Shown here in pieces: positions 1,398 through 5,099 of a stretch of 5,099 bases of DNA (positions are counted from its first letter, which is position 1; each line of letters opens with the position of its first letter). The position numbers were made by a program, and so were the translations under genes. The notes below the pieces were generated by a model. It did no database searches and was not told the origin of the DNA. It saw only the letters and a program-made list of their open reading frames with translations. This DNA comes from Nitrospinae bacterium RIFCSPLOWO2_12_FULL_45_22. GTDB lineage: Bacteria > 2-12-FULL-45-22. The DNA lies in contig MHDQ01000188.1 in assembly GCA_001803565.1 (NCBI GenBank), forward strand, positions 1-5,099. The letters run 5' to 3'.

Positions 1398-3896
1398 TTA
1401 AAAATTCTCTTTGTATAGTTGCTTATCGAACTCTCCATATTGATAGATATCTACTCCATATATGCATATCTCCCATTTATCAGTCTTCAAAACCTGTTTA
1501 CAAGACAAAATCTCCTTTTTAATCTCTCGGATAATATCATTTTTAATAATCTCCTGGGTATCAGGCGGATTAGGTGGGTCCCATTTAACATCCTTCCGAA
1601 GCTCAATGGCTATCCTGAATCTAAATAGCAAAGGAATGCTCAATTCGACATCAATCTTCTTACTATTTATTGGGTTAACCAACCGGAAAAATACGGCATT
1701 GACCCGGTTATGTAAATCAAAGTGTCTTTCCTGGATCATCTTGAATATGATCTTGTTGCAGCAAGAAAGCCATTCTGTAAGAATGAGATAATATTGTTTT
1801 TCTTTTCCGTTGGCTTTATTCTCTTCAACCCATACCCTCTGAACCACACCAAGAAGGGCTGACTCGAGATCTCTCAAGCCACTTTCCATCTTTTTCTTAT
1901 TCCCATAGTCAAAGATTAAGTTAATTTCTCTAAACTTATTGAAATTCTTATCCTCCATTTTTATCCAGGGAAGGATACGGTAATCCAAAATATCCTTTAC
2001 TTCTTTTCTTCTTTGGCTGGTTTTATTAATACAATCTGAAATCCTCCCACCCTTATTCTTTTTAAGCCCTTCATAAATATGCCATATGCCATCGAACCAC
2101 TTCTTTAAAGCCACCCAGTTCATCAGATCTTTAGAATCCATATGTTGAATAGAATATTGCATCATAGAAGACAACCTCTGGAGCGTTTTCATTTCAGTGT
2201 CGATCTCTCGTTCAGTTAATTCTATCCGCCTCCGCCGGTATTCTTCATCTATCACCCGTTCTCTCTGGTTGTCACAGGCATCAATAATTCGCTGAAGTGC
2301 GGTAATCAGCTCCATCCTAAGGTATTGTCCTGAGTTAATTAGAAATTGATTATTTAGTTCCTTAATGGGATGGTCTATCTCTTTCCAGTGATAGAATCTT
2401 TGGGGCAATTCAGAGGTCTTAATCAGGGGCATCTTTCTGCGGTGGTAGCGATAGGCAGCGATGATGGCATTAATATATGGCTCTTTATTGTTGCTTATAT
2501 CTTTACCACTAAATCCTATTGTCTCCGTCTTTTCTCCCTTCTTAACCTTTTCCAAGTCTCCCATTACTGCATAATAGGCAAGCTCGTGATGTAGATCCCG
2601 ATTAAAGGAAGGAAATGAGGTAATATCTACTTTTTTTGTCTTTCTAGTGTCATCTTCATTCCACTCAAAGTTGATTTCCCTACCCGAATGCCCAATGTCA
2701 TGAATCCATAAGGTGTAAAGGAGGACATAAATCTCCTCCGGAGACAGAAAGTCTTTAAAGGGATATTCTTTAGCCTGATTTCTATTCACTTCAAAAGTTT
2801 GCATGGGCTTTATTAGCTGAACAGCCATCTCAAGGAGCCGCTGGCAGTGTCCTCTAGCATGATCCACAGTCTCAGGGATGTTATCACCAAGCCAGATATA
2901 CTGGGTATCAGCAAATCTTTTCTCAAGATCTTCTTTTAGTGGATGACCCTCAGGGAATAGGGTTAGTGCCACTGCCCCACTTCCAAATCGGGTCAGTTTT
3001 GTTCTTGATTCCTCCCATCGCTTCTCAAGAATATCTTTAATAGGTAAGGCTGTATATCTTTTCTGCGATGGGTCTTCTATAAAGAGGTGCTGTAGTCTCA
3101 GGGGCAGGGACTCCAGCAACCCTTTTGCTTTGTCCTTATCTATATGAGGTAGGGCATAGATAATAGAACGGTATTCATTTCGGCCAATAATATCAAAATC
3201 CACAGGGAGTAATGGCAAGTCTATAATATTTGGTGATTGCTCATATAGATATTTTATCTTCACGCCCTCGTAACACATCCCTATGATGGAGGTATAAGGG
3301 ATGAGACCTTTGTAGCCCCCAGTAATATTGATGATGAATTCGTGGCCTTTGTGTTCTTCCTTTTCCAAGTAGAAAGTGATAGAAGAGATGAGATTCTGGA
3401 TACCTTCGGTTTGGAATCTATCAGCTTTCTTTACCTCAATCCCTTTTAAGAGTCCACCGCAAGGATGTTCTTCCATACAGTTTCCCAAGGAAGATTGGGT
3501 AATATAATTTTTCAGTACGAGAAAACAGAAGGCCCCTTCAGGGGTATCAGAAAAGAGTAGGACAATTTTATCCTGGTTAACTTTAGAACACCCGATCTTC
3601 CAGAGGCTGGCTACCTCAGCAGGGGCAAAAAGGCGGTGATTTTCGATTGTTGAGTTCAGTTTAGCTTTCAATAGACTTACAACTTCATTTACTTTACCCG
3701 AGTAGGAGTCCTGAAAATTCTTTAATGCCAGTTCAGTAGGCCAATTCGTAAACGGGTTTTTTAAGTATTTTGCAATATCTTTTCCTCTGGAGTATAAAGG
3801 GTTAGGTTCATTATCAATATGCTCGCTTACTAATTTCTCCAGGAGGGATGTACCTACTGTGGTAAAGATAAGTTTTGGAGGTATGTCCATATCCAT
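1398..3896 (-). CDS. CARF-HD fusion: putative type III CRISPR signalling effector
   Basis: An 832-residue protein. Residues 8-240 are a CARF domain of the APE2256/Csm6-like group: a first strand ending T-T-V-G15-T16-S17-L-L, a middle strand at 110-125 (V-L-L-F-S-D-T-P-E-G-A-F), the signature N-I-T-G193-G194-Y-K196-G-L-I-P-Y (190-201), and a tail with L-P-L-L-P-V-D-F-D (227-235). Such domains bind cyclic oligoadenylate made by Cas10. Residues about 335-545 are an HD domain: H346-x3-H350, H399-D400-I-G-H403, D-L-H436-H437-E, Y-R-Y-H485-R-R and D539-A-C-D542 give the full metal-binding pattern, close to the HD type found in conflict-system effectors. It could be a nuclease or a nucleotide phosphohydrolase; the sequence does not decide. 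Residues about 546-832 are charged, helix-rich in the first half, and unassigned. No signal peptide or membrane segment is seen, so it is likely cytosolic. It starts 7 bases after the RAMP gene, which implies one operon. The second ATG at 3890 (M3) has better ribosome-binding-site spacing and may be the true start. Confidence 0.87.
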   Translation of the reverse strand: MDMDIPPKLIFTTVGTSLLEKLVSEHIDNEPNPLYSRGKDIAKYLKNPFTNWPTELALKNFQDSYSGKVNEVVSLLKAKLNSTIENHRLFAPAEVASLWKIGCSKVNQDKIVLLFSDTPEGAFCFLVLKNYITQSSLGNCMEEHPCGGLLKGIEVKKADRFQTEGIQNLISSITFYLEKEEHKGHEFIINITGGYKGLIPYTSIIGMCYEGVKIKYLYEQSPNIIDLPLLPVDFDIIGRNEYRSIIYALPHIDKDKAKGLLESLPLRLQHLFIEDPSQKRYTALPIKDILEKRWEESRTKLTRFGSGAVALTLFPEGHPLKEDLEKRFADTQYIWLGDNIPETVDHARGHCQRLLEMAVQLIKPMQTFEVNRNQAKEYPFKDFLSPEEIYVLLYTLWIHDIGHSGREINFEWNEDDTRKTKKVDITSFPSFNRDLHHELAYYAVMGDLEKVKKGEKTETIGFSGKDISNNKEPYINAIIAAYRYHRRKMPLIKTSELPQRFYHWKEIDHPIKELNNQFLINSGQYLRMELITALQRIIDACDNQRERVIDEEYRRRRIELTEREIDTEMKTLQRLSSMMQYSIQHMDSKDLMNWVALKKWFDGIWHIYEGLKKNKGGRISDCINKTSQRRKEVKDILDYRILPWIKMEDKNFNKFREINLIFDYGNKKKMESGLRDLESALLGVVQRVWVEENKANGKEKQYYLILTEWLSCCNKIIFKMIQERHFDLHNRVNAVFFRLVNPINSKKIDVELSIPLLFRFRIAIELRKDVKWDPPNPPDTQEIIKNDIIREIKKEILSCKQVLKTDKWEICIYGVDIYQYGEFDKQLYKENF

Positions 3897-3905
3897 CCTT
3901 CCTTT
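3897..3905 (-). promoter_or_regulatory. Ribosome-binding site that decides the CARF-HD start
   Basis: The minus strand reads AAAGGAAGG, overlapping the TAA stop codon (3904-3906) of the RAMP gene. It abuts the first ATG (3894-3896) directly but lies 6 bases before the second ATG (3888-3890), the usual spacing. Start at 3890, giving 830 residues beginning M-D-I-P-P-K, is therefore the better supported choice. The overlap with the upstream stop suggests coupled translation of the two genes. Confidence 0.55.
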
Positions 3906-5064
3906 ATTCGTGCAGTTTGTAGGTATTAGTCTCTACTTCCTGAGCAGTAGGCAGGGGGTGTTCACAAATGGGTTTTCCATAGTGTGAGCAAGTTTTTATC
4001 GTGCAATTGGCGGTATAATTAAAAAAGCTGGGGCGATCCGGATACTTGATGGGAAGTCCATGATTTATAGGGGGATAGTTCAGGATAGCCCTCAAATCTT
4101 CCCAGGCATCAGTATGAAATGAATTTTTGGCATTCTTAAGCTTATTTATGAAGTAACTAACCTCTGTGCTATCTGCTCCCTTTTTGCCTTTGTATCTATC
4201 GAACATATTGATATTTTTAAAACCCTTTTCATCAAACTCTATCTTTATTGTCCCAAGGCCCAGTGGCTTTCCCAGTCCAATCTTATGGCACATGCTGTCA
4301 TCAAGCCTCAGGGATAAAAGGAGAAGGCCAAGTTCTTCATCAGAGAGGTTTTCATAGGTTACAGGAAAAGAAAGATTACCAGAGACGAGGAGTTCAATAG
4401 CATCGCAACCGGGAAAATACTGGGTCTTTATGGCTTCGTTATCTGGAGGTCTATGGTAATAGAATTTTCTTCCTCGTAAATTCCCATTATGATTGAGGTA
4501 AAAGCTTTCGTGGTGGGGCTTGGGGCTGGACAGGGCATGGTCTCTCAAGAACCTTCGCTCAAGGCTTCCATTCTCTATCTTTATATCGGAAAAAGAGACC
4601 TTTCCCCCAAAGCCTTCCTGTCCTTCCTGTCCTTCACCAACGGATTTATTAGATGTCCCAAAGAGTCTACAGCAAATGCAGAGACCCTTTTTTTCATCTC
4701 TTAGATAGCATCCATCATTTTTGCTTTCATCTGGAATACCATAAGAGAAATTAACCTTATACCTTCTTCTTTCCCTTTCTATTTCCCAGCTATTCCCACT
4801 GGGTGAATTATAGTTTGTTTTCTGAACATTCTGACCAACATTTTGCCACTGGGAATTAGGGATAGCGTTAAAGGCGGCTATAAGAGTTCTGTTTTGGATA
4901 TCATCTCTGTATTCCGCTGAAAACATGGAGAAGCAAGCACTGGAAATGGCCTCAGCTATGGATCTGATCATGCCTTTTACAGTAGAGCCAGGTATGAAAG
5001 GGAGACCATCATGGTTCCTGCTGAACCTCTTGTAAAAGACAAATTGGGGGGTTGGGTTTGGGGT
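3904..5064 (-). CDS. CRISPR type III RAMP (Cas7-like) protein, 5' end missing
   Basis: A RAMP-superfamily protein of the kind that forms the backbone or cap of type III crRNA complexes. The frame stays open upstream of the ATG at 4971 and encodes F-Y-K-R-F-S-R-N-H-D-G-L-P then F-I-P-G-S-T-V-K-G-M-I-R-S. This last block is the N-terminal RAMP signature (IPGSS-x-KG-x-x-R), so the ATG at 4971 is internal and the true start lies beyond the window. Counting from that Met: C98-I-C-C101-R-L-F-G105-T is the usual Cys-x-x-Cys-x-LFG block, G122-G-K-V-S-F-S-D follows, then P-H-H-E-S-F-Y-L (152-159), G-R-K-F-Y-Y-H (167-173) and the glycine-rich loop G232-L-G-K-P-L-G-L-G (232-240). The C-terminus has a Cys/His cluster (C323, C328, H330, C336, H338). 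The GRKFYYH and GLGKPLG blocks recall the TIGR03986-type RAMP group, but I cannot confirm the subfamily or the subunit position. Superfamily assignment is firm. It is co-transcribed with the CARF-HD gene. Confidence 0.9.
   Translation of the reverse strand, partial: TPNPTPQFVFYKRFSRNHDGLPFIPGSTVKGMIRSIAEAISSACFSMFSAEYRDDIQNRTLIAAFNAIPNSQWQNVGQNVQKTNYNSPSGNSWEIERERRRYKVNFSYGIPDESKNDGCYLRDEKKGLCICCRLFGTSNKSVGEGQEGQEGFGGKVSFSDIKIENGSLERRFLRDHALSSPKPHHESFYLNHNGNLRGRKFYYHRPPDNEAIKTQYFPGCDAIELLVSGNLSFPVTYENLSDEELGLLLLSLRLDDSMCHKIGLGKPLGLGTIKIEFDEKGFKNINMFDRYKGKKGADSTEVSYFINKLKNAKNSFHTDAWEDLRAILNYPPINHGLPIKYPDRPSFFNYTANCTIKTCSHYGKPICEHPLPTAQEVETNTYKLHE
4613..4635. repeat. 9-base tandem repeat inside the RAMP gene
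   Basis: The plus strand has CCTTCCTGT at 4613-4621 and again at 4622-4630, then a partial copy to 4635. On the coding strand it is in frame and yields a short Glu-Gly-Gln repeat (residues about 113-120 counted from the internal Met), in the variable loop between the CxxCxLFG block and the GGKVSFSD strand. Copy number could vary by slippage without breaking the frame. Confidence 0.6.
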
Positions 5065-5099
5065 TTACAAGAGGTTCAGCAGGAACCATGATGGTCTCC
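5001..5099. repeat. Perfect 36-base inverted repeat at the window end (probable fold-back artefact)
   Basis: Bases 5001-5036 and 5064-5099 are exact reverse complements, separated by 27 bases (5037-5063) that include the G-rich run GGGGGGTTGGGTTTGGGG. The inner arm and the spacer are coding sequence for the RAMP protein: the inner arm carries most of the F-Y-K-R-F-S-R-N-H-D-G-L block and the spacer reads P-N-P-T-P-Q-F-V. The outer arm is a copy of the opposite strand of that coding sequence and introduces an in-frame TAA at 5065-5067. An exact repeat that ends precisely at the last base of the sequence, and breaks a conserved gene, is best explained by a fold-back chimera or assembly error. 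A genuine hairpin cannot be excluded from sequence alone. Confidence 0.85.

Follow-up and report, generated by a model that had tools for sequence, protein, structure and literature searches.

A CARF–HD fusion protein from a probable type III-D CRISPR–Cas operon, with an output module resembling PPX/GppA domains III–IV

The window analysed here (the whole stretch of DNA, 5099 bases, which is an entire contig, G000:C188, of a genome that is 85% complete) encodes a single polypeptide that joins a CARF sensor to an HD domain. We consider it probable that this protein is a cyclic oligoadenylate (cOA)-gated effector of a type III-D CRISPR–Cas system, with a metal-dependent phosphodiesterase as its output. 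The gene had been placed at positions 1398–3896 in a preliminary description; the open frame agrees exactly with these coordinates and lies on the minus strand, which corrects that description. It starts with ATG, and the chance of an 833-codon stop-free run at the GC content of the window is about 1e-23. The gene and the parts of its product are as follows.

1398–3896, minus strand: gene of the CARF–HD protein, 832 amino acids, coordinates including the stop codon (profile matches and five CARF–HD relatives)
3192–3875, minus strand: CARF domain, residues about 8–235, with the GTS motif at 15–17 and the GGYK motif at 193–196 (Cas_APE2256 match and Cami1 alignment)
2997–3191, minus strand: linker, residues about 236–300, helices and two short strands (AF2 secondary structure; VIA alignment to the region after the CARF domain of Cami1, 8phb/8phj)
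2247–2894, minus strand: HD-CE domain, residues about 335–550 (Pfam HD-CE, invariant columns, PPX/GppA profile match, cross-family alignment)
1767–2246, minus strand: helical stretch, residues about 551–710, longer than in the relatives (AF2 model, gaps in the relatives' alignment)
1401–1766, minus strand: C-terminal domain, residues about 711–832, with invariant H725 and E795 (alignment, L017 model, VIA alignment to PPX/GppA)

A CARF domain had been proposed for residues 1–240, and both sequence and structure bear this out. Pfam Cas_APE2256 matches residues 93–229 (1.3e-21, above the cut-off), the PADLOC CARF7 models match the protein, and the two motifs on which the proposal drew are present as T13-V-G-T-S17 and N190-I-T-G-G-Y-K196. 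Searched by sequence against the PDB, the protein matches Cami1 best (5.6e-19) and, after it, ring-nuclease entries of the APE2256 family. The full-length predicted structure (AF2, 39 rows) is good for the CARF domain, moderate for the HD domain and poor at the C-terminus. Cami1 and Sis0811 form the top rows for this model in both Foldseek and VIA, the latter aligning residues 8–299 (CARF and linker) with Cami1 at Z 21.9, and the structure search also reveals a resemblance of the CARF fold to the ring nuclease SSO1393. By homology with Cami1 and Sis0811, the CARF domain would bind cOA as a dimer. GTS is CARF motif I, which has been tied to cOA cleavage in Sso2081 (PMC10018336); as the motif is present here, self-limitation through cleavage of cOA by the CARF domain is possible.

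To place the protein among its relatives, we scanned a genome collection, which included two genomes from the source phylum, with a CARF alignment. This retrieved 80 loci. Five of them encode CARF together with HD, and HD was absent from the other loci that the scan retrieved. The five come from Ca. Lithacetigena (L017), Poribacteria (L018), a genome labelled Deltaproteobacteria (L019), Nitrospirae (L020) and Desantisbacteria (L021, with an apparent frameshift). They are 24–31% identical to the window protein and match the PADLOC CARF–HD fusion profiles too, and the architecture occurs in diverse lineages. IMG/VR scans with the window protein and with the CARF, CARF–HD and HD alignments returned no relative, nor did the phage records, and the plasmids held only CARF proteins of Cami1-like length. 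In a CARF tree, five of the six CARF–HD proteins group together (94/87), and the L018 protein is placed elsewhere on a long branch, which suggests an exchange of the CARF domain or a second fusion.

The CARF–HD gene directly follows a RAMP gene in L017, L019, L020 and L021. In L019 and L020 the CARF–HD gene is itself followed by a Cas6-like gene; L021 has a Cas6-like gene further down, and L018 has one two genes on, where a CARF-DUF2103/RelE protein separates it from the CARF–HD gene. The same Poribacteria locus (1148–8720) thus holds a CARF–HD and a CARF-DUF2103/RelE gene and, past the Cas6-like gene, another two ORFs whose sequences read as CARF-like.

The HD domain is likewise recognised by sequence and by fold. 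Pfam HD-CE matches residues 341–555 (1.7e-11, 44.8 bits against a cut-off of 27) and is above its cut-off in all five relatives. An alignment of the six proteins allowed us to revise the metal site given in the preliminary description. All six proteins share the likely ligands H350, H399, D400, H436, H485 and D539, whereas H437 and D542, which had also been listed, vary. The list had moreover left out H346, H403, R433, R486, R536, Q544 and R547, all of which are invariant, as are G402, S404, P429 and P490. According to a review, HD phosphodiesterases whose metal centres are di- or trinuclear have the motif H...HD...H...HH...D (PMC8177086). As the CARF–HD family keeps this ligand set, save that R486 replaces the second His of HH, we read the module as a phosphodiester hydrolase, and a metal-dependent phosphodiesterase with an apparently intact site is the best reading of its residues.

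A search with the whole predicted protein was dominated by the CARF domain, and the HD and C-terminal part of a relative (L017) was therefore folded instead (pTM 0.76). When this model was compared with the PDB in VIA, the first five rows were PPX/GppA proteins (Z 12.5–13.0 over 181–192 residues), followed by PDE10A at about 10.5, and residues 325–819 of the window protein itself align with an exopolyphosphatase at Z 12.6, values to be read with the caution that a VIA Z near 13 can arise by chance for helical bundles. Cas3/Cas10-type HD domains, SAMHD1-type dNTPases and HD-GYP domains were not among the top PDB rows for the L017 model, an absence that does not by itself count as evidence against them. 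The C-terminal domain has low model confidence in the window protein; its L017 counterpart is predicted to be beta-beta-alpha-beta, like domain IV of PPX/GppA. Foldseek by itself ranks PPX low for the L017 model (E 0.56). Since helical folds may often reach such Z scores and Foldseek does not rank PPX highly, the profile and motif evidence weighs more. In profile–profile comparison the HD module matched five PPX/GppA proteins at 97% (score 79), against 15–76% (scores 31–44) for HD-GYP sets of equal depth. A search of 386 genomes with the module profile retrieved a PPX/GppA protein (L143, 4.8e-4), and the motifs H, HDxG, H, RYHR and RIxDxxD occur in the same order in both families. Hits of the PDEase_I profile were weak. 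Single-sequence hhalign comparisons with SpoT, Dgt, YfbR and Cas3 HD gave no match; the E. coli PPX and GppA sequences, when used singly, were weak too, so those families are still candidates. Leaning on the profile and motif evidence, we regard the HD output as a two-domain module closest to domains III–IV of PPX/GppA and then to cyclic-nucleotide phosphodiesterases.

This relationship brings with it the idea of an HD domain that has lost its catalysis and acts in binding or as a scaffold, on the model of the degenerate E. coli PPX/GppA domain (HEVG in PPX). We consider this very improbable: although the nearest fold family includes degenerate HD sites, the six likely ligands are invariant in six highly divergent proteins, and they match those of the PPX and HD-CE members whose sites are intact.

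Assuming, then, an active phosphodiesterase, we weighed its possible substrates. Nucleic acid comes first, with about an even chance of being correct; a 2025 classification lists HD-family DNases among the cOA effectors (PMC12669027). Free nucleotides or a nucleotide alarmone come second, as a real possibility that falls short of probable, and cOA itself third, as an unlikely one. The second option amounts to a small-molecule enzyme in which cOA binding triggers hydrolysis of dNTP, NTP, (p)ppGpp or a cyclic nucleotide, and we grant it roughly one chance in three. It fits the nearest folds, PPX/GppA and the cyclic-nucleotide phosphodiesterases, as well as the PDEase_I hits, weak as these are. 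PPX/GppA proteins are polyphosphate and pppGpp enzymes, and their catalysis sits in the ASKHA domains. CARF effectors that act on nucleotides also exist (PMC11645235, PMC12715507), and small-molecule activity is reported for Cad1 and for CARF-HAD effectors. The placing of HD effectors among the DNases in the 2025 classification speaks against a small-molecule substrate. A broader version of the idea is more speculative, and we rate it as possible but unlikely: a cOA-gated, exopolyphosphatase-type HD with an intact metal centre would destroy a nucleotide or alarmone pool, and HD-CE would be a common small-molecule weapon under CARF, NB-ARC and HSP90-like triggers. HD-CE domains fused to NB-ARC or HSP90-like ATPases were found in other genomes by the module-profile search (loci L140, L141 and L142).

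Next, we considered the genomic setting of the gene. The preliminary description had recognised a type III RAMP gene upstream, and this identification holds (TIGR03986, 1.3e-34); the RAMP gene ends 7 bases before the ATG of the CARF–HD gene. Two features lie at this end of the window.

3904–5043, minus strand: 3' part of the TIGR03986 type III RAMP gene (profile match), its first 87 codons apparently on contig C291 (L013:1–262, minus strand)
5001–5099, no strand: near-perfect inverted repeat that closes the contig, with 43-nt arms at 5001–5043 and 5057–5099 and a 13-nt spacer

The ATG at 4971 is not the true start of the RAMP gene, as the frame continues towards the contig end. There the inverted repeat, probably a product of misassembly, introduces a stop into the RAMP frame and interrupts the gene. 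Another contig of this genome, C291, breaks off within a gene of which it carries the first 87 codons. These match TIGR03986 positions 1–50, whereas the window part matches best at 333–557; the 5' end of the RAMP gene thus appears to lie on C291. Judged from this one gene split over two contigs, rather than from reads, the natural order would be a type III-D operon with the CARF–HD gene at its end.

PADLOC matches on C291 to Cas10d, Csx10 (Cas5), a Csm2-like protein, Csm3 proteins and Csx19 identify a type III-D locus. The contig carries Cas6, Cas1, Cas2, a CRISPR array of at least 13 repeats, Cas10d, Csm3, Csx10, Csm2, two more Csm3-type proteins, Csx19 and the start of the TIGR03986 gene; Cas2, like the reverse transcriptase and AEP parts mentioned below, was named by sequence reading and not by profile. 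Its Cas10 has 500 amino acids and contains GGDD, its only Pfam match is palm2, and an HD domain is absent, both by Pfam and in that no HD motif is present at its start. Several neighbouring genes were also observed. A 997-aa ORF just upstream of Cas1 and Cas2 (C291, locus L013, 11882–14875, minus strand) contains a run of N and reads as a reverse transcriptase with TPR-like repeats and an AEP/PrimPol-like part, and two small adjoining ORFs between Cas10 and the array (6710–7476, minus strand) read like a HEPN-MNT toxin–antitoxin pair. In the window, downstream of the CARF–HD gene and also on the minus strand, an AbiEii/DUF2204-type nucleotidyltransferase lies at 104–646 and a short MntA-like nucleotidyltransferase at 1098–1373.

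The genomic setting bears on a further explanation, namely that cOA is what the HD module degrades, which would make the protein a ring nuclease or attenuator instead of an effector. HD phosphodiesterases are able to cut cyclic dinucleotides (PMC8177086), and the CARF domain, with its fold like that of Sis0811 and SSO1393, keeps the motif I GTS (PMC10018336). However, two CARF profiles found no second APE2256-type CARF and no Csx1-type CARF in the 85% complete source genome. As the window protein is the only CARF protein found there, an attenuator would have no response to dampen, unless an effector is missing from the assembly, which the incompleteness of the genome allows. Besides, a CARF domain alone could suffice as a ring nuclease, and HD-CE is also joined to NB-ARC and HSP90-like ATPases. 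Together, this makes an attenuator improbable, and the reading of the gene as that of a CARF–HD fusion effector downstream of a RAMP gene is supported.

An effector of this kind might work as follows. Binding of target RNA would lead the HD-less Cas10, through its GGDD cyclase motif, to make cOA, most likely cA4. The cOA would bind to the CARF domain, which should dimerise as its homologues Cami1 and Sis0811 do, and the change would be relayed by the linker, which may open or order the HD site. The two-domain output, with its PPX/GppA III–IV and PDE-like fold and H350, H399, D400, H436, H485 and D539 as putative ligands, would then cut phosphodiester bonds, so that the cell or the invader is slowed. 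Through its GTS and GGYK motifs, the CARF domain may also cleave cOA and in this way limit the response.

CARF–HD fusions had been described as noted in surveys and as poorly characterised in their activity, and both statements agree with what we found. The fused PADLOC models CARF7--CARF_CYTH_HD (3.6e-42) and CARF7--CARF_HD (6.6e-39) match the window protein across CARF and HD (PDLC01933 residues 66–736, PDLC01929 residues 13–573), which means that the architecture has already been catalogued. In the open literature searched, which leaves most subscription papers outside it, we found no biochemical or other experimental study of any CARF–HD protein. Nor did we meet the link to PPX/GppA domains III–IV in that literature, in searches that had other aims. 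The window protein is thus a further member of a fusion class known from classifications and defence databases, and of an apparently uncharacterised kind. This case supplies six divergent members of the class, a strict list of invariant residues, a type III-D setting in which Cas10 lacks an HD domain, and a structural tie between the CARF–HD output and both PPX/GppA and cyclic-nucleotide phosphodiesterases. If HD-CE has one chemistry, solving it for CARF–HD would also explain the HD-CE proteins with NB-ARC or HSP90-like ATPases.

The protein was also compared with known systems. It shares with PPX/GppA domains III–IV the order of an HD domain and a small C-terminal domain, and HDIG, H(H/K), RYHR(K/R) and RIADxLD line up between the two. 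However, it lacks the ASKHA domains I–II (no PF02541 match, where E. coli PPX scores 367 bits), its H346 is absent from PPX, and its ligands are intact where those of E. coli PPX are degenerate. The ligand order H..HD..H..H..D is also that of the HD-GYP cyclic-di-GMP phosphodiesterases, but the window protein has neither the GYP triad nor the HH pair (HRRKMP follows the His, and R486 stands for the second adjacent His), and the profile match is weaker. The HD-CE proteins with NB-ARC or HSP90-like ATPases contain the same Pfam domain, and most of their ligands agree with those of the window protein, H346 and H350 among them; unlike it, they are larger, carry another trigger domain and show no CRISPR link in the short stretches seen. 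The PADLOC entries CARF7--CARF_HD and CARF_CYTH_HD have the same order of CARF and then HD, and differ in that the CYTH domain named in the latter label has no Pfam match in the window protein. Finally, Cami1 (CARF-RelE, PDB 8phb/8phj) has a similar CARF7-type sensor and linker and likewise comes from a type III system. Its output is a RelE ribonuclease, whereas the window protein, in which Pfam gives no RelE match, carries the HD-CE module in that role.
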